This document shows positions 1-46,081 of a DNA stretch of 64,000 bases, one piece after another (the stretch's first letter is position 1; every line of letters begins with the position of its first letter). The notes under the pieces are model-generated. The model saw nothing but the letters and a program-made list of their open reading frames with translations, searched no databases and was not told the origin of the DNA. The DNA is taken from NCBI RefSeq assembly GCF_024713945.1, contig NC_134685.1, forward strand, positions 558,001 to 622,000, written 5' to 3'. A program made the translations under genes and the position numbers. The stretch is from Dermatophagoides farinae. Taxonomy: Eukaryota; Arthropoda; Arachnida; Sarcoptiformes; Pyroglyphidae.

Positions 1-3000
1 AAGCAAAGATTATGACCATCGGTAGAATTGTGGTAGCATCGAACAATAATTTCGACAAATAATATGAGCCACAGGTGTACCAGCCTTTAATTAGAATAGA
101 TTCATTGATTAAAATAAATGAAAAAGAATCCCAAATTGAAAACATACCATTTAAATGTTGAGTTGCAAAAAATTTCAATCCCAATGAAAACAAGTTGATA
201 ATTTGAGCGTCCAATATGAAAAAGAAAATGAAACTTGAAAAAATTACAAAATTAACATTGCTGACAAGACGAAAATCGTTTTTCCATTTATGATCAGTAA
301 AATTCGAACAAACGGCTAAGAAATCATCTTCTATCGATATACAACCGTCAATATTAACTATTTTTTTATCAAAACAATCTAAAAACATGGTTCCTAAAAA
401 TACGTAGAAAATCAGGTATGTCAACCATAATGGCCATTGATATCGGATTGAACAATGGGCTAAACGATGGAATAAAATGGCTACCGATCGCAATGAAAAT
501 CGCATTCGAGGGAACGGTACACCATCCTTTATATGAACAGTATCCAGTAACACCGATGGTGTGATTTTATTGATTTGATTATCAGTTTCTTCGGCTAATC
601 GTTGTACGATTGAATTCGAGTGATCAGTGCACGAATACCGGATAAGTGTTTCAATTGGGAATCGTTTATCTTTATCGATGGAAGATGTTTCACTGAGAAA
701 ACTTTTGATTCGGGCTGGTGGTCCTAAATAGATACCAAGGCCATCGAATGCTAGCACATAGCATAGGTCAAACATGTCCAGCTGTTCGGTACTAGGTTGA
801 TGAATGCTGACCACCATAGTGATATCTGGATGACGAGCAATGAATTGTCGAAGACATCGAAGGACCAACCGTGCCGAATTGGAATCCAAACCACTGACAG
901 GTTCATCAATGCAAATGAGATTGGGCATTCGAACGGATGTCAATTCCATTGCCAGAGCCAGTCGTTTCCTTTCTCCACCGGAACAATTTTGCACCATAGT
1001 GTTGGCCGTGTTGGTCATGTCTAATTCATTGAGCAAATTGTCAGCCACTTGTTCATGATCAATTGTTTGTGTTTCGTGACAATTCTTTAATTTAGAAGCA
1101 TAGACCAAACTTTGTTTGCTTGTCAATCCGGGTATCAAGTGTTTGGATACTTCTTGTTTGATATAGCAAGTCCGAATCGGTACGAATCGACTGAGGTAGA
1201 ATTGAGTCGAACCAGTAAGTTTGGTTTTCATTTTTCCATTGAAAACTTTCAACAATGATGTTTTACCCGAACCGGAGCTGCCCATGATTGCATTCAATGT
1301 TCCAAACTGAAATTGTCCACTGAGATTACGTAATATTAACTTGTCTCCAAAATCATCCAACGATTCAGGTGTAGGACGCAATTCATAGATGGTATCAGTC
1401 GCAAACAATGTCAATTGACGCCATCCAATTATGTAACGGCCAGTACAAAATTGTTGAAATTCATTTTTGGTCATTTCAGGTTCAACATTATTATTATTAC
1501 TATCGAAAATCTGGACAAACGTAGGCTTTTCATGAAAATCGATTTCAATTGCAGGAGTTAGGATTTTTGTCAATATTTCTTGCTTTGTTTCTGATACGAT
1601 TTTTCCATTGTTCACATTGCTAAATGTCCAACGCATCACAATGATAGAAATGATTCGAATCACTATTATTACAATCATCGGCTTTTCTAGGTTTGAATAG
1701 ATATTGTCTGTGTCGACAAAAAATTGTTTCAATATTTGTGAATATTCTGTTTGTGGATCACAACGATCAATACCATAGTATGTATAAAGATAGCCATCGG
1801 CAATATATCGACTACCAAGTAAATGTGATATTGTTCGATGAAATGGTTTGTCCATTAAATCAATGGTAACTATTAATCCATTAGAAGCATTTAATATGAC
1901 CAAGATTACTTGAGATAGAAGAAGAAGTAATTCAAATTGATCGATACACGTTGCGATCAACAAATAACCGAATGATTGACCATACAAGACTATAACTAAT
2001 GTGAATAAAGATCCACTGCCCATACGATACCAATTAATTTGATATTGCTCAACAATGAGAATTCCACAATTCAGATAATAAATCACTATGAATATAACAA
2101 CAATCAATATCGATGTAATCATATCATTCAATTGAACAGGATGAATTAATGATGCATAACTGTACCAACCTGCAAAATGAATGTAGAATTAAAATTATAT
2201 ATTGACCGTTTAATGCTATGAATCTTACCATTACGATATTCGTTACGAAGAATTTTCATAAAATTCACTATCATGATCGAATACATTCCTAAACCAAGCG
2301 ATAATGTAAGTATCATTATCATTATTAAAAGCATCAGACATGTTCCAATTAATCGATCTTCTTTCAATTTTTCTTGACATGTTTGATTGAATTGTTCAAT
2401 ATTGAATGGTAGACAACCACTTGGTATTACCATATCTTTATTAGCGATTGATGTAAGTAAAATAATGTTTATTGTGCTCGATACAATAACCAAAATTATA
2501 TTTCGAACATCTGCCATGAATGTCAAACGTAATAGACGCCGGAATTGTGTCCAAAGATCCGAACTACGAAATTTTCGTGAATAATGAGGAATACCTTTTG
2601 GAATAGAAGCAAATGGACATTCTTCTTTTTCAAATTTACTGAATTGAGATGTAAGTCGTTGATGGTCTTGTTGCACACTTTCTTGTGTTAATTTTCTCAC
2701 TTGTTCATCATTGATGCCATTGCTAGCGATACGAAGATATTCCTGGATCGGAGAATCATCCTCATTCAATGCGATTCCAGTGATTTGATTCAGATGTGAC
2801 CGTAATCCACCCGGTTGATCAGAATAAATGCAAACACCTCCTTTGGCTATGATGTACAATTGATCGAACATATCCAATATATCCGAACTGGGAGCATGAA
2901 TTGACACGAGGACTGTGATGCCATTCTGTGTGGACAATCGTTGTAGACACTTCATGACCACCAATGCTGACTCACTATCCAGACCGGTAGTAGGTTCATC

Positions 3001-3582
3001 GATGAACAAAAACGGTGGTTTCGATTCGATTGACATCAGCTCTTGAGCGATGGCCACTCGACGTTGTTCGCCACCAGAGCAATTTTCGAAACGTGTTTGC
3101 AACACTTTTGGATTTAGCATCAATTCCTGGATCGTTGACTGGATGTGTTGATATGCTCGGCCATGATAGTGAGCAGGATTCTTGAAGCAGAATGCATAAT
3201 ACAAAGTCTCGAGCACTGTGAACCGTCCAAGGATTATCTCATGAACGAATTGTGGCACAAAACTGACCAATGAATTCGATGACTTTGTGATTATTTCACT
3301 GTTGATATAAATTTCAGTGTCGGGTGAAATGTTCTTGGCTGGAACATTGCCAATGAGACAATTTATGAGCGAAGTTTTACCTGAACCGGATGGTCCAAGC
3401 AATGCATTCAAACTGTTCATTCGTACTGATCCATTAAGACGATTAAGGATAACTTTTCGCCGTCGTCGTGGTTGCCAACCATCGACCATAAACCATTCAT
3501 CAACTTCATAACGTAAATTTTTCCAACACAACGAAATTGGTTTTTTGAATTCACAACATACATCTGTTTCATTCGACATCAT
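1..3582 (-). CDS. Full-length ABCG-type ABC transporter (two fused halves), 3' end outside window
   Basis: Exons 2229-3582, 148-2169 and 1-84 (continuing off the left edge) give at least 1,153 residues with no stop. Order is NBD1-TMD1-NBD2-TMD2, the 'reverse' ABCG layout. NBD1 has Walker A GPSGSGKTS, signature CSGGEQRR, Walker B LFIDEP and D-loop GLDSES. NBD2 has GSSGSGKTS, CSGGERKR, LICIDEP and GLDSNS, with an H-loop SIHQPS (SIHAPS in NBD1). Both sites look able to hydrolyse ATP. Each membrane half has the ABCG-like NGWY motif, and each is interrupted by a short phase-1 intron at that motif (2170-2228 and 85-147). ABCG proteins export lipids, sterols or xenobiotics; the substrate here cannot be read. 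Animal ABCGs are normally half transporters that dimerise, so this fused form is unusual. The start is the first of two adjacent ATGs. A separate gene for the second half is unlikely because the frame is open through the linker. Confidence 0.88.
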
Positions 3583-4715: not shown

Positions 4716-5887
4716 TCATACTGAATTATTTACGGTTTCTGTTTGACAAATAATGATACAATAGATACATATTAAACACAATGTATCGAGTAAAAATTCA
4801 AAATCAATACGACAACAATTGAATAGATTTAATCGTAAATAATCCAAATAAACGGCATTCATTTCAAATAATCGTAAATATTGTTGTTGATAATTATCAT
4901 TTGTTGTAAATTTTTTCAACATTTTTCCATCATTCTGTATGTAATGTTCAATTTTTGTAGAAATTTTCACTATTGATAAATCAATCGATACAATGTAAAT
5001 AAGATATATGATTATTGTGATGAAAAAACCAAGTAATGGATAATCCAATTGTTTGGATGTTAATGCCAATACTAGATCCAAACAATTACTAATATATTCT
5101 AGTAGAAATATCCATGAAAATAATTCATTAATATGTTGATTCAGCTGTGCTAATTGGCGAACTGTTTGTATAAGCTGTTGATGGCCAACATTCATATCAT
5201 CATCATTGGTGTTTTGTTTAAATCGTTCAAATTGATATGACAATTGAACACTGGTTCCATATTTAATATAATGATAAATCATTAGATAAGCAAATTGTTG
5301 TATATCTTCACAAAAATATGCAAACACTGCTAATGGATGACCATCTTCAATGATTTGACAAAGAAATCGTAGATAGAATAATGGATATGTTATTATTATG
5401 AATATGATTGTCATAACGAATATTGTTCGTGGCCATCGTATATGATGATAAATTTCATTGAATAAATCATCATTTAATATATCGATCACTTTTGGTCCAT
5501 ATATCAATAAATAGAACATGAGCATTAAACAAATTGTTTCAAAAATATGATCATTAATCAAATGAAATAGACATAGAAATGCATTCTGATAATCATCAAC
5601 TGAATCTCTATTAAATTTTGGTGGATAATCATAAAAAAATGAATAGACCAATATCATAATGATGATCAGGTTCCAAATGAATCTCAATATAGTGGATTTT
5701 TGTTTCCAATCAATATGATGTAATCGCATGCCTAGAAATCTAAAAAATTGAAATTAGTGAAAATCGGTAAAAAAAAAATTTTGCTCATTGATCAAATTTA
5801 CCCGAAAAAATTGCAAAATAATTCCAGTAATAATGATGATCTACCAGTATTGTCATCATGATTATCGATGGTCATCATCATATCCAT
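4716..5887 (-). CDS. Gustatory-receptor-like seven-transmembrane protein
   Basis: Two exons (5802-5887 and 4716-5739, joined across a 62-nt gtaaat...ttttag intron) give 369 residues, the usual size for arthropod gustatory receptors. The first exon supplies a short hydrophilic N-terminus and corrects the start to the ATG at 5887 in good context. The rest is about seven hydrophobic helices separated by short loops, with a longer cytoplasmic-type loop around residues 190-230. The last helix ends IYCIIICQTET, where insect Grs have a TYxxxxxQF-like motif, so the match is loose. The family are ligand-gated ion channels of chemosensory cells. No close neighbour shares the function. It could be another divergent 7TM chemoreceptor; the family is called from architecture and not from a decisive motif. 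Confidence 0.6.
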
Positions 5888-7144: not shown

Positions 7145-10100
7145 TCATGTCCAAATAATCTGCGGAATGAAACGATCCTGTGCACTATAAATAATTTGTA
7201 TCTCTTCAGCAAGAAATTGCAATGGTAACAAGACTAGATGACCTTTGATCGATGAAAGCATCTCTTCAGCTTTTGTTTCATCGGTTTTATATAATTTTTC
7301 TCGTCCTAGATAGGTGTTTATATCCGATAATTTTTGAACATCATCCGTAGGCATAACCGGGAATACTTGTTCATAGATTTCTGTATTTTCTTTCGCTCTT
7401 GCATTCCAGATTTCATTCCAGAATTGATCGGAAATTGGATCATTAACCAGATCGGTCATTTTTAGCATATCTTCTTTGTTTTCCTTATAAATACCAAGAT
7501 GTTCACGCATCAACATTCGTCTTAATGAACCGGAAAATTTTCCCGATTTATATGGTTTTTCATTCATAAAATAAAAATCATATTCTTGATCTTCAATAAT
7601 GACACATACTTCTGAATCACGATAACCCAACATTGAACGATCATTTATGTTGGCCGAACCAATAATACTGATTTTATCATCTGCTATTAGAATTTTACTT
7701 GAAATTTGAAAACGAAGAAAAAATTTCTACATAATTTTATTCAAAAAACAATGAATGAAAAAACTTACCTATGAATATAGATCAATTCGGTGACCAATCG
7801 TCCATTCAATTTGGTATGATTCCTAAGGCTATAGAATCCAATATATTGACTTGGATCATCAATTTCCAAACTTAATTTCGCCAACAATGAATCATATCCT
7901 TTGACGATTGTTGAATAATTATAATGCATAATCTGTTGAATGGCTGTACCGCTACTGGTGCCAACTTCACCTTCGAATGCTGGTAATAATGGAATGAGTA
8001 TGAATACACGAAATGTATGGCCATTACGAAATGCACGTAATATACGTCGATAAAGTGCTTCGGCTATACGATTTTTAACGAGATCTGTACTTTCCAAATG
8101 AGTTTTTGTTTGTGAAATGAAAAATTGATTTTCAATATAGATATAATGTTCAGCTTGATTGATCACTTCAATGTATGCATCGACAATTGATGCTTCCGTC
8201 TGTCGGATACCGATAGACCATGAACCAACTGAACGTATCTTTTGTGCGTGGGTGAGAAAAAATTCAAATTCAAAAAAAAAATTTTAAATTTTCAAAAAAA
8301 TACAAAAAAAACTTACAGTCTGACAATTAACACGATGAGCACGTGTTAAATAAGCAGGTATTTGATCCATTGGTTTACCATCGACATTCGTTGTTGTTAA
8401 ATCTTTTCGATATGTTTTCGGTATTAGCCATGGATAACGGTCTTTGAATTTTGCTTTCGAAAATTTTGTATGATTCCAACGTTCAATAAAATGACGTGCA
8501 ACATCACGTGCTGCATCACCGATAACGACACATGAAACATCATGCCAAGGCATTCTTGGCGTAGTATTACGATCAATTGAATCTTGAAATGGCATATTTA
8601 GATGAGTAAAATCTTTGACAATAAAATTCGTATAATCTTTTCCGATCCATAGTTTAGCTGCACCTTCCAATTCATCACATGCGATATCAGTTTCATTTTG
8701 AATACGTGGTATACTTTGTTTGAAAAAATCCGGTGTAATCTCCACATTACTATCCTCATCGGTTGATATGATCGATCGTACTTCGGCTTGAGCTGTTCGT
8801 ACATGGCGTCGAATTCGTTTTTTAATCCGCCGTAAACGTGCCATTGCACGTGTCTGTTTTGCACGTAATTTTCTGGTTATTCTGGTTTTAGAGAAAAAAT
8901 TTCCTTTCGTCTGTTGTGATATGACTTTTCGTATTTGTTGTTCTTCATCTACTTCATCATAATCATTCTTTGTTGACGATGTCGATGTTGTTGATGATGA
9001 TCGATCAGCTTCTTGTTGATTTGTATCATTTTCAATGAGAATCTCTTCAACATCAGCTACAGATCTTGTTTCAATGGAATCATCATCAATCACTCTAACT
9101 ATTGGTAGTTCTTGTTTATCATCAACAATAGTATTTACATTACGTTTTTTTCGAATTTTACCACCACCACCACCACTACCAACTGCTTCTTTAGTGGGAG
9201 AACTATCATCAGCTGCTGCAATTGCATCAGCCAGAAATGGCTGTGATATCGAACGATACATTAGACCATTAGGTCTAGTTGAATTACGGATAAGGCTTGA
9301 AAAAAAATCATTATTTTTTTTAAATTGAAAACAAATTTAAATTCATTTTTTATATAACTTACTCATGTTGTTGTGCTTTGAAAAAAATTCCACCTTGATC
9401 AATGAGACGATGTTCAAAATTATCCCAACGACCAAAACAAAGATCAATACCACCAACGAATGCAACCTGTTGATCAATGATCACCAATTTTTCATGATGT
9501 GACCACAATAATGGTCCACCACGTACAGCATCTGGATGTCGTAATACGGCAATATTTTCATGCATTTTCATCAGTGTACGTTTCGTATAAATTGAACTGA
9601 TACTGATTCCGATTTCCATTTCTTTATACAACAATATAAATATTCGTACACCTGAACAAGCTTTTTTCAATAATAACCGATCTAGACGCCAATCAAATCC
9701 AAGACTAGGACGTTGTAAATAAATTTCCGGCGATAACCACCAATCAGTGATGAAAATTTCTTCTTTTGCCATTTCCATAGCTTGGGATACTGCTTCGAAA
9801 TATGCACAACCATCAACAAACCATTGGCTATAAATGGATTTTCGCACTGGTACAAATGAACCAAAACGATTACGTTGAACAAAATCTTTGGCATATATAC
9901 GTGAATGTTCATTTAAATAATCGGCAACTTCTTTTGCACTTTTTGCTGAAAAACATTTCATTACTAGCTGTCTGGACATATTACGTATACGTAAACCGAA
10001 TGTAATACCAGTTTCTTTGATACCAGCATCGGCATAAAAATCTGGATCAAATAACATTACATAACGAATTTTTTTATCTTTTGGTTCCAAATAAAATAGA

Positions 10101-11008
10101 CAAGTATCTTTCACTACTAGCCATCGTTTACGCCAATGGCCAGTAAGATCGGTGAAAAAATTTTCAATACGAACACAATATGTAGCTGAACGAAAACCAC
10201 CGGCACGTTTTTTCACAAAAACTTCTTCACCTTTTAGTCCAAGTTCATCGATAAATGAATATGGGCTGATTGCCAGAAATGTTTGCAATGAAGGATGATG
10301 ACGAAACAGTGAATGGCCAAGCAGAAAACGAAGATAATCTTCAAGAATTTTCTACAATTAGGCAGAAAAAAAAGAATTTAAAAAAATTATTCTGAAAAAA
10401 AAATTTCACATACAATACGACGGCTTATCCCGTCGCCAATATAAAACATTTCAGGAAGAACAGGAAATTTTGGCCATTCAATTTCACCCATTCTTTCGAG
10501 AATTTTACGATTCTGTCTACTATTCTGTGTGGGCAATGGAATGGCCAATTTTGTATAGAACAGCCGGATTTGATTATGTAGTTGACGAAATTGATTGAAA
10601 CGACGTTTAATAATCCAATTGAAATGTCCATGATTCAATTCAATGTGATAAATGTATGGTGAGAAAATGAATGATGTTTCTTCATAATTAATAATTTTAG
10701 CATCGATTGGTAAATCATCCAGATATACGCTATCAATTTTATCAGGAATAAATATCGTTTGATATGGTATTCGTGGTCGTTGTTTTGGTGGTGGTGGACG
10801 AATCGATGAAACATCCGTATAATCTATAGAAAAAAAAACATTCGAATCGATTATCGATTGTTTTGAATGCTATCTTACCTTTTGATAATTTTGATTTTTC
10901 ATGATTATTCTTTTTCTTTTTCACACCACGATTTTTCTTTTTAATCTTCGACATGTTCATCTTTGATTCATCATCATCATTGTTTTTATCATCAATTTCG
11001 ATTTCCAT
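7145..11008 (-). CDS. Pld: Phospholipase D (PLD1/2 type)
   Basis: Hydrolyses phosphatidylcholine to phosphatidic acid and choline at cell membranes. Six exons (10879-11008, 10414-10823, 9363-10351, 8317-9295, 7769-8238, 7145-7697) add up to 1,176 residues in frame. Domains in order: a Lys-rich N-terminus; PX (about residues 85-190, with the basic stretch [16 protein letters not shown]); PH (about 220-340, [11 protein letters not shown]); first HKD motif HHEKLVIID followed by [11 protein letters not shown]; a long, charged, low-complexity loop of about 180 residues; YIENQFFIS; second [12 protein letters not shown] followed by GSANINDRS (split by an intron inside the Ser codon). It ends IIWT, like the conserved C-terminal WT of animal PLDs. 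Both catalytic HxKx4D motifs are intact. The long loop after the first HKD resembles PLD1 more than PLD2. The start is the ATG at 11008. Confidence 0.96.
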
Positions 11009-43422: not shown

Positions 43423-46081
43423 TCAATCTTTCCGCGTTTTTCGTTTATGTAATTCTGTTTGTAATTGATGGCTACCACCACCACCACCACTACTACTACC
43501 TGTACCACCAGCCCAACCGGATGATGAGGTAGTATTCGTTTGATTGGTTGAAAAACTTCTAGTCATATTTACGGCTGCTGAAGTAGTTGATGTTACATTC
43601 AAACCGGTAGCTTGTGTTATAGATGATGCTGTATGTGATTGTATGAATGTTTGTAGCTTATCCAATAACTATAGAGAAAAAAATAAATATCAATTTGTAA
43701 TCGATAATTGAAATTGAAAAAACAACTTACAAATAACCAAAGCTCTTCGGAAAAATGATCAATAATCGATACGAAACTGGGATAATTACCCGAATAACGA
43801 CCAAAGACATATGCAATGAATATAGCCAAATCTATCGTACCAATTGAAACAAATATGTTGGCCACTTTTTGGATACCGAAAACTTCAATGATACGTGCAG
43901 TCATGAAACAAATGAAACAGGCCATTAACAGGATTAATGGTGTACCAAACAGGCTGTGGTGAAAAATAATATTTATCATTAAAAAATGGAATTTGATTGT
44001 AAAATGAAGACTACATACCCGAAAACATTTTTACTTTTATTTTGTATGGCAAAATGTTCGAATGCTTGACCCAGCTCTTCTTCAAGCCGTTCACGATATG
44101 ATACAGAATATTCAGCACCTCCCATCTTTGGAATAGTATCAAATTCATCCATACATTTGACCAGTAAGTCAGCATGTCGTTGTTCCAATGTTGTCGGATT
44201 TATATACGGTTGATTACCACCACAAATGGCTTCCATTTCATTCGTATACATATCCTTAACAACGGCCACGGCATTCAGATTATTTGCTTCAGCCGTCGCT
44301 TCCAACATGGTTTTCGGTTCAGGCATTGTATCACCAGCAAATACATTGATATAAACTTTGAAATATTCCAACAATTGTCGTCCAGTTATTGGACGGCCAC
44401 CGATTTCTTTGGGTATAATTCGGCTAGGTGCCAACAGGTTTGGAACAAATTGACGAAGATGATGAGCAAAATCCTGATCATAATCACCAAGACGACCATC
44501 AAAATTCTGTGCAGTAGCAACACGAGCACCAGGATGTGGCATAAGGAAACAGCCAATCTCTTTGAAACATTCACGAATTTTACGGCGAACCCGTTGTAAT
44601 TGTTCGGGCATGGTTTCTTTAAGTTCCAATTTCTTTTCTAATAATCTATGGCCACCATCAAATCCATATGGATGTTCATATGGATATGACCAATCACGTA
44701 TGAGAAACACTAATTTTTGAAATGGTTTTTCATGTACAGATTCCAATGCAAGACGGCCATATTCAAGGAAAATTTCCAATACCTGTAGATTATCCTCTTG
44801 TAGATTGTGCATTATATTGAAAACTTGTATCGATGATGTCATCGTTGACAATGCAAATACAGTGGCCGAATCTTTTACAGTATATTCACTATCAAAGGCA
44901 CCCTGTGTATCCATAAGAATGACAGCCACTTCTTTATCATCCGATGTACGAACAAGAAATGGTTCAGACCACATAAGTATACCGGTTGTATCACGTTGAC
45001 ATCCACCACGCCATGAAAATCCTTTCAATGGTGCTGTTGGATCGGCTAACCAATCATCATTTGATGGTGATAATGATGATGAACCATCATTTTGACCATT
45101 ATTATTATTATTATTATTATTATTATGATTCGAACTATTTGCTTGTAGATAGCCAAGAAAATGATTCAACATAAATGATTTTCCTAAGATAATCAAAATA
45201 AGAAAAAAACAATTATTATTATACAACAAATCTATAATATTAAAAATATACAATTGGGTAAATATTTGAAAAACAAAACAATCGTAAATGTCAAAATAAT
45301 CGTCAAAAAAAAAAGATTTTCTATTTGCTATTTGATATTATTGTTGACTGTTGTCGTCGTTGTTGCTGAGATTGATTTATGTAATCTACACTATGATCTG
45401 CTCAGTTGTACATATGTAAGACGTACAAGTACGTACAATGACAATTACGGTATCATTAAAATGAAATTTTCCTTTTTTTTCTTCTAAGCTAACAAATTAT
45501 CGATCAATCAATCAATCAATCAGTCCTATTATCTTTTTACAAATAAAAAGAACCCAAAAAACTGGAAAATGGATTTCTTTGTTTTTATAAAACATTCTTT
45601 TTTTGTTCATAATTCAGATTGATATCATATCGCAATTGATTTACAAGATCTATAATCGATGATCGACTGTGTGTATCTATTCATGTTGTATGTGTACCTC
45701 TTTCTCTCAATGTCTCTATGGCTGTAATGTAAATATAAAATTTTTTATGATGATTAATTAGCTTTCAAAAAAATCAATCATCAATAATCAATAAATACAA
45801 AATATAATTAATCAATAATTACCTTTACGAAAATCACCAGCAATCGATACAACAACAACGGGTGTATCACGAATTGAATCTCGTAATAGAATTGAACCAA
45901 GTGCATCAACATCCAATTCAAATTTACGTTCATCAGTTACTTTTACAATCTGTATTGGCTGTCCAATTAATTGTTCCATTGGATTGGTAATCATTTCATA
46001 ATCACCATTTGTTGATGATGTCTGCGATGATGTTGATGATCCATTATCATTTATTATTGCAGTTTCATGTCGATCACCCAT
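43423..46081 (-). CDS. atl: Atlastin (ER membrane-fusion GTPase)
   Basis: A dynamin-superfamily GTPase that fuses ER tubules. Five exon pieces were considered and four are supported: 45823-46081, 44019-45183, 43731-43953 and 43423-43668, giving 630 residues. The G1 loop GDFRKGKS is split by the 639-nt first intron, one of the longest here. G3 is DTQG in [13 protein letters not shown], and the atlastin G4 RD is in [15 protein letters not shown] three-helix bundle follows, then two closely spaced hydrophobic segments (about residues 478-530) and an amphipathic-type C-terminal tail. A poly-Asn insert after the G1 loop and a Ser/Gly/Thr-rich C-terminal extension make it longer than the usual 540-560. 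Divergent from Caf1-55. Confidence 0.95.

Follow-up and report, generated by a model that had tools for sequence, protein, structure and literature searches.

Predicted full-length ABCG transporters in the mite Dermatophagoides farinae and the probable origin of their fusion

Does an animal genome encode ABCG transporters in which two halves are fused into one chain? This question is raised by a 64,000-nucleotide stretch of the mite Dermatophagoides farinae (the window; contig NC_134685.1, here C9:558001-622000, of a 62.4-Mb assembly with 22 contigs). At its beginning lies most of a gene with two nucleotide-binding domains (NBDs) and two transmembrane domains (TMDs) in the order NBD1-TMD1-NBD2-TMD2. 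In the passages available from three papers, metazoan ABCGs are stated to be half-size (PMC3724490; PMC4649718; PMC4587908). A passage of another places half-size ABCGs 'in most metazoan species' and, in one sentence citing others, mentions 'several ABCG full transporters' of oyster and shrimp (PMC4247197); this second-hand mention counts against novelty. Our literature search found no description of a full-length ABCG in mites, and an earlier mention elsewhere is possible. For Psoroptes ovis, an RNA-seq expression table lists two genes as 'ABC transporter G family member 20', in passages that are silent on architecture (PMC12364353). We suggest with high confidence that the window gene truly encodes a full-length ABCG, which would have arisen by homofusion of a tandem-duplicated half gene with an intron at the NG|WY motif, independently of the PDR transporters. 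Its later multiplication would have given no fewer than 30 loci, of which about 25 are intact.

Architecture of the window gene

The window gene (L031) lies on the minus strand, and in our spliced model three exons are joined to encode 1331 aa with both NBDs and both TMDs. Exon 1 (2229..3582), which is an open frame ending in a GT donor, contains the start codon, all of NBD1 and the beginning of TMD1 (codons 1-451 and base 1 of codon 452). NBD1 (2782..3546) was defined by the Pfam ABC_tran match, tblastn (C9:560782-561546) and motifs. These are the Walker A GPSGSGKTS, a Q-loop, the signature CSGGEQRR, the Walker B with its catalytic Glu (LFIDEPTTGLDS) and the switch His (SIHAPS). Intron 1 (2170..2228) has 59 nt, GT-AG borders and phase 1, and it splits the Gly codon of the NG|WY motif in TMD1. 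TMD1 (1616..2547) crosses this intron and was placed by hydrophobic blocks and by the best stretch of the ABC2_membrane match (PF01061, residues 347-582). Exon 2 (148..2169) is a single stop-free exon with the remaining part of TMD1, an open in-frame linker of about 59 residues (1439..1615), NBD2 and the first part of TMD2. NBD2 (689..1438), found by tblastn (C9:558689-559438) and motifs, has the Walker A GSSGSGKTS, a Q-loop, the signature CSGGERKR, the Walker B and Glu (ICIDEPVSGLDS) and the switch His (SIHQPS). Intron 2 (85..147), of 63 nt and again GT-AG and phase 1, is located at the NG|WY motif of TMD2. TMD2 (1..493) is truncated by the window edge, and in the model exon 3 runs from window position 84 down to C9:557465, 536 nt past the window start. 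All these features are on the minus strand.

A preliminary description of this DNA had proposed a single NBD1-TMD1-NBD2-TMD2 protein, with intact Walker A, signature and Walker B motifs in both NBDs, in one uninterrupted coding frame over 1..3582. The architecture and the motifs, together with the switch His, are confirmed by the spliced model, Pfam and motif inspection; every inspected motif is kept in both NBDs. The frame, however, is interrupted by the two introns, and it runs on the minus strand, which that description had left unstated. It looked uninterrupted because the length of intron 2 is divisible by three and no stop occurs in it, so that it reads as coding. The interval 1..3582 does take in the start and most of the gene, but the gene ends near C9:557465, outside the window.

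Two ABC_tran and two ABC2_membrane stretches were found by Pfam in the window protein, the latter with 56.2 bits against a cut-off of 26.9. A hydropathy scan gave five hydrophobic blocks per half, where known ABCGs have six helices per membrane domain. The two halves are 27% identical over 449 aligned positions. In both halves the NBD is N-terminal to the TMD, the reverse order that marks ABCGs. The best-ranked Protein Data Bank (PDB) matches are ABCG/PDR chains, and the best NCBIfam model is of the White type, with a score under its cut-off. An ABCG half-transporter has one NBD and one TMD per polypeptide, whereas this model holds two of each. We also considered the ABCH family, whose TMD we take to be ABC2_membrane_3 (PF12698). 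ABCH membership of the window protein was rejected, since the Pfam scan gave no PF12698 in it; of two other ABC open reading frames (ORFs) of the mite that were scanned, PF12698 was found in L005 and not in L004.

The family across the genome

The preliminary description concerned one gene. Its architecture is real, but it belongs to a family of 30 loci. In a whole-genome tblastn search, NBD1 gave 113 matches (135/135 candidates scored) and NBD2 gave 106 (134/134 scored); the locus counts come from first-look candidates and are lower bounds. Downstream of each of the 30 NBD1-type loci, and on its strand, lies an NBD2-type partner, at 1.1-3.3 kb from start to start and mostly about 2.1 kb. The sole unpaired piece that we noticed is a 39-residue fragment (C6:3646687-3646803). 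The loci are distributed over contigs C3 (11), C4 (2), C6 (4), C7 (4), C8 (2) and C9 (7), with a tandem array of six genes at C3:5.614-5.644 Mb. A near-copy of the window gene, L032 (C9:545908-550015), lies about 7.5 kb away on the same strand, with other ORFs in between.

Models for the 30 loci, the window gene among them, were made by splice-aware alignment of the window protein. They are homology-guided from one query and have approximate ends; the aligner disallows frameshifts, so that small ones may hide as gaps or introns. By our rule 25 models are intact, with 1268-1337 aa and no stop. Intron 1 is present in 23 of these and intron 2 in 24. The Walker A Lys, the catalytic Glu and the switch His are kept in both NBDs of all 25, and the SGG signature is found in 25 NBD1s and 23 NBD2s. 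Some intact models are rough: a 36-nt intron of L050 is away from the usual site, in L051 intron 2 lies one codon later in a different phase, and C8_337k has an intron of 120 nt in the linker. L050 also lacks the Q of the NBD1 Q-loop.

The other five loci are not intact. L055 has two stops, L056 has implausible extra introns that are likely frame breaks, L057 has a 1232-nt gap in TMD1, and C6_4506k has a deletion that leaves 958 aa. L059 (C3_814k; C3:812826-817394, minus strand), which adjoins the intact L050, is stop-free over 1444 aa with a degenerate Walker A and signature in both NBDs; it could be a copy in decay or a full-length ABCG without catalytic activity. L055, L056 and L057 form a cluster of seemingly broken copies (C9:2022746-2039550) near the intact L054. 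This cluster suggests birth-and-death turnover.

We compared the window gene with five close paralogs (L032, L041, L043, L054 and the broken L057). The ratio of non-synonymous to synonymous substitution (dN/dS) is 0.06-0.25 in the NBDs and 0.26-0.66 in the TMDs. Against the distant L044 and L045, the computable values are 0.12-0.16 for the NBDs, 0.26-0.48 for the TMDs and 0.23 for the linker; two L045 segments were saturated. Together with the in-frame linker, this is the pattern expected of one coding unit in which the membrane domains and the linker change fastest. Between the window gene and L032 (C9:545908-561582 overall), the NBDs are 98-99% identical and TMD1 is 70% identical; dS is 0.05-0.12 in the NBDs and 0.23-0.27 in the TMDs. 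The lower dS of the NBDs suggests that these segments were homogenised by gene conversion while the membrane domains diverged.

Origin of the fusion

Each half of the window protein resembles a White-type half-transporter. TIGR00955, the White-type model, reached 180.4 and 162.2 bits with the two halves over nearly its whole length, whereas TIGR00956, the PDR model, reached 104.7 and 91.7 bits and covered no more than an NBD. Domain by domain, the score of NBD1 is 99.4 with AtABCG25 and 75.4 and 39.5 with the two CDR1 halves; that of NBD2 is 98.7 with ABCG1 and 59.3 and 54.9 with the CDR1 halves. In the PDB, ABCG1 ranks first for the C half, and ABCG1 chains match the N half through NBD and TMD (residues 18-633). 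The order of NBD before TMD is also that of the White-type proteins. The difference is that ABCG half-transporters are single NBD-TMD chains that need dimerisation, and the mite gene model fuses two such halves.

The NBD tree (72 rows, LG+G4) was built with fungal PDR rows only and without insect ABCG, ABCA or ABCH rows. It omits C6_4506k and retains L055, L056, L057 and C3_814k. The mite loci L003, L015, L019, L022 and L025 are not among its rows, and several of its half-transporter NBDs are incomplete (199-260 aa). In this tree 29 NBD1s form one clade (100/99) and 29 NBD2s another (100/100). The two clades are nearest each other, and together they are split at 100/99 from eight half-transporters of the mite, ABCG1, AtABCG25 and four PDR halves.

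The introns point to how the two halves came together. We aligned 25 N halves, 25 C halves and five half-transporters, omitting the five non-intact loci. The split Gly codons of introns 1 and 2 fall in the same column, 664, and both introns are of phase 1; we estimate the chance of such a match in site and phase across about 640 codons at roughly 1 in 2000. The shared site and phase argue that one half gene with an intron was duplicated side by side and fused. In the course of events that we propose, the progenitor was a half-transporter gene whose membrane domain was already interrupted at NG|WY by a phase-1 intron. A tandem duplication of this gene would have been followed by head-to-tail fusion of the copies and then by multiplication of the fused gene to the present family. 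Six half-transporters of the mite (L009, L007, L023, L006, L001 and L008) score alike as the nearest one (112-166 bits).

The same six carry YG-x-x-RC and (N/H)(G/K)WY motifs in the membrane domain in common with both fused halves. L002 and L012, which are White-like by impression, do not show these motifs. No relatives of NBD2 were found in a prokaryotic contig collection.

Several results weigh against our reading of a fused gene independent of the PDR proteins. The scores of TIGR00955 and TIGR00956 are both far under the curated cut-offs (736.35 and 1959). When PDB chains are ranked by total bits, PDR chains are on top for NBD1, NBD2 and the N half, in part because their two domains add up, and the best stretch of the C half against ABCG1 is confined to the NBD. 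Long branches joining among the half-transporter, ABCG1, AtABCG25 and PDR rows drew a warning from the tree program. The NG|WY-site intron is absent from all eight modelled half-transporters (in L008, a phase-0 intron precedes the site by a few codons); thus, the progenitor would have been lost or changed. The linker has a relaxed dN/dS of 0.34-0.73 against the same five close paralogs. Three approximately unbiased (AU) tests did not reject kinship with PDR NBDs, whether all mite NBDs were grouped with them (p 0.22), NBD1 with the PDR N halves (p 0.227) or NBD2 with the PDR C halves (p 0.121). The joint test of PDR ancestry, with NBD1 placed with the N halves and NBD2 with the C halves, rejected it (p 0.031); this test was run after the three looser ones, uncorrected, on one alignment and two fast-searched trees.

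The alternative that survives best, though we regard it as improbable, is that the fusion was inherited or transferred from a PDR-type full-size ABCG of fungi, plants or protists. Pdr5 and CDR1 do have the identical domain order in one chain, PDR chains do lead in summed bits, and the looser AU tests (p 0.12-0.23) allow kinship of the NBDs. However, descent from a common fusion ancestor requires that N halves group with N halves and C halves with C halves. This joint tree is the one rejected, with fungal rows only and an uncorrected p value, and direct PDR ancestry is rejected on this basis. The White-type model also beats the PDR model for both halves, and introns at the same site in both halves speak against such descent. 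In addition, the N-half NBD of CDR1/Pdr5-type proteins is degenerate, without the Walker A Lys (GSGCTT), the catalytic Glu (WDNATRGLDS) and the switch His (AIYQ), whereas both NBDs are catalytically complete in every intact mite model. The PDR C-half signature reads LNVEQ, and the PDR proteins have 1501-1511 aa, compared with the 1331 aa of the window protein. An origin independent of the fungal and plant PDR proteins, as the preliminary description had supposed, is thus favoured by the profile scores, the NBD tree and the joint AU test. It is likely, not proven.

Slightly less probable still is that two adjacent half-transporter genes have been misread as one. In that case the RNA would end, or be spliced to a hidden stop, in the stretch from TMD1 to NBD2. 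Mites are known to have ABCG genes next to each other, for example a row of seven in Tetranychus urticae (PMC3724490). The linker of the window gene contains an in-frame Met (EPEMTK), and one intact locus, C8_337k, was modelled with a 120-nt linker intron. The coding strand has AATAAA at window positions 571, 2442 and 2473 and just beyond the gene end, and ATTAAA at 91, 1091, 1895 and 2214. The site at 1895 is in exon 2, within TMD1. The interval 1440-2170 had been named earlier as the junction where a stop or polyadenylation would separate the halves; all of this interval except its last base, an intron base, is in the stop-free exon 2. A motif scan of the linker (1439-1615, coding strand) gave no stop, no AATAAA and no ATTAAA. 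The linker is in frame, with 41-65 aa, in all 25 intact models, and in L042 (C3:3473226-3477259), where no intron precedes the one in TMD2, NBD1-TMD1-NBD2 is a single intron-free open frame that links the halves. Apart from the 39-residue fragment, NBD1-type and NBD2-type domains are never solitary. On these gene models, we reject simple tandem half-genes.

An assembly collapse or contamination, which the preliminary description had also argued against, is rejected as very unlikely: the 30 loci are spread over six contigs of the 22-contig assembly, the introns are short, and the group-2 allergen ORF of the same assembly matches Der f 2 in the PDB at 119/120 residues, with Der p 2 clearly weaker. 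This allergen match by itself places the genome in D. farinae or a very close relative.

Genomic neighbours, proposed function and significance

Next to the window gene, a 337-aa hydrophobic ORF (4716-5729, minus strand) without a Pfam match has the appearance of a multi-helix membrane protein, perhaps a chemoreceptor. The ORFs at 7145-10288 (minus strand) look like exons of a putative phospholipase D (e.g., HHEKLVIID). A GTPase with a GBP domain (PF02263) at 43979-45253 (minus strand) is probably atlastin-like. Outside the window, between the gene and its near-copy, ORFs on the plus strand (L031:2393-4401) resemble an alkylglycerol monooxygenase or a sterol-desaturase-type lipid enzyme.

For a homofused mite ABCG, we infer from the gene models that one polypeptide is made in vivo. 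The two halves of the chain would stand in for the two separate subunits of the dimers in other animal ABCGs. In ABCG5/ABCG8, an obligate heterodimer, two different ABCG halves presumably form one pump, as we propose for the mite protein. The difference is that ABCG5 and ABCG8 are separate genes and chains, whereas the halves are covalently joined in the mite model and both ATP sites are apparently complete. NBD1 and NBD2 would close on ATP at two composite sites, each with complete catalytic residues and presumably competent for hydrolysis, and the two membrane domains would move a hydrophobic or amphipathic substrate.

Conserved NBDs combined with fast-changing TMDs suggest a panel of pumps that differ in their substrates. 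As to what they carry, export of dietary or environmental chemicals, including the xenobiotics raised in the preliminary description, is a guess to which we would give about an even chance, and export of cuticle or sterol lipids is a more doubtful one. Taken together, the mite family has the chemistry of ABCGs, a PDR-like layout, probably a separate animal origin and a large radiation. We hypothesize, with the balance of likelihood even, that an animal-only class of full-length ABCGs goes back to one homofusion early in the evolution of astigmatid mites. Its roughly 25 pumps, with two working ATP sites and rapidly evolving membrane domains, would then serve as an arsenal for chemical defence or lipid export, in a role like that of the PDR proteins of fungi and plants.

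About 25 intact fused ABCG genes in a common allergenic mite contradict survey statements that animal ABCGs are half-size only. They would offer an independent replay of the transition from half to full transporters, in which the reasons why fusion is favoured could be studied, and permanently paired halves, both ATP sites complete, to set beside the asymmetric PDR pumps. In mite gene lists, such fused genes may be labelled just 'ABC transporter G family member'. Thus, the family would alter the reading of mite ABCG gene counts and of acaricide-response data.

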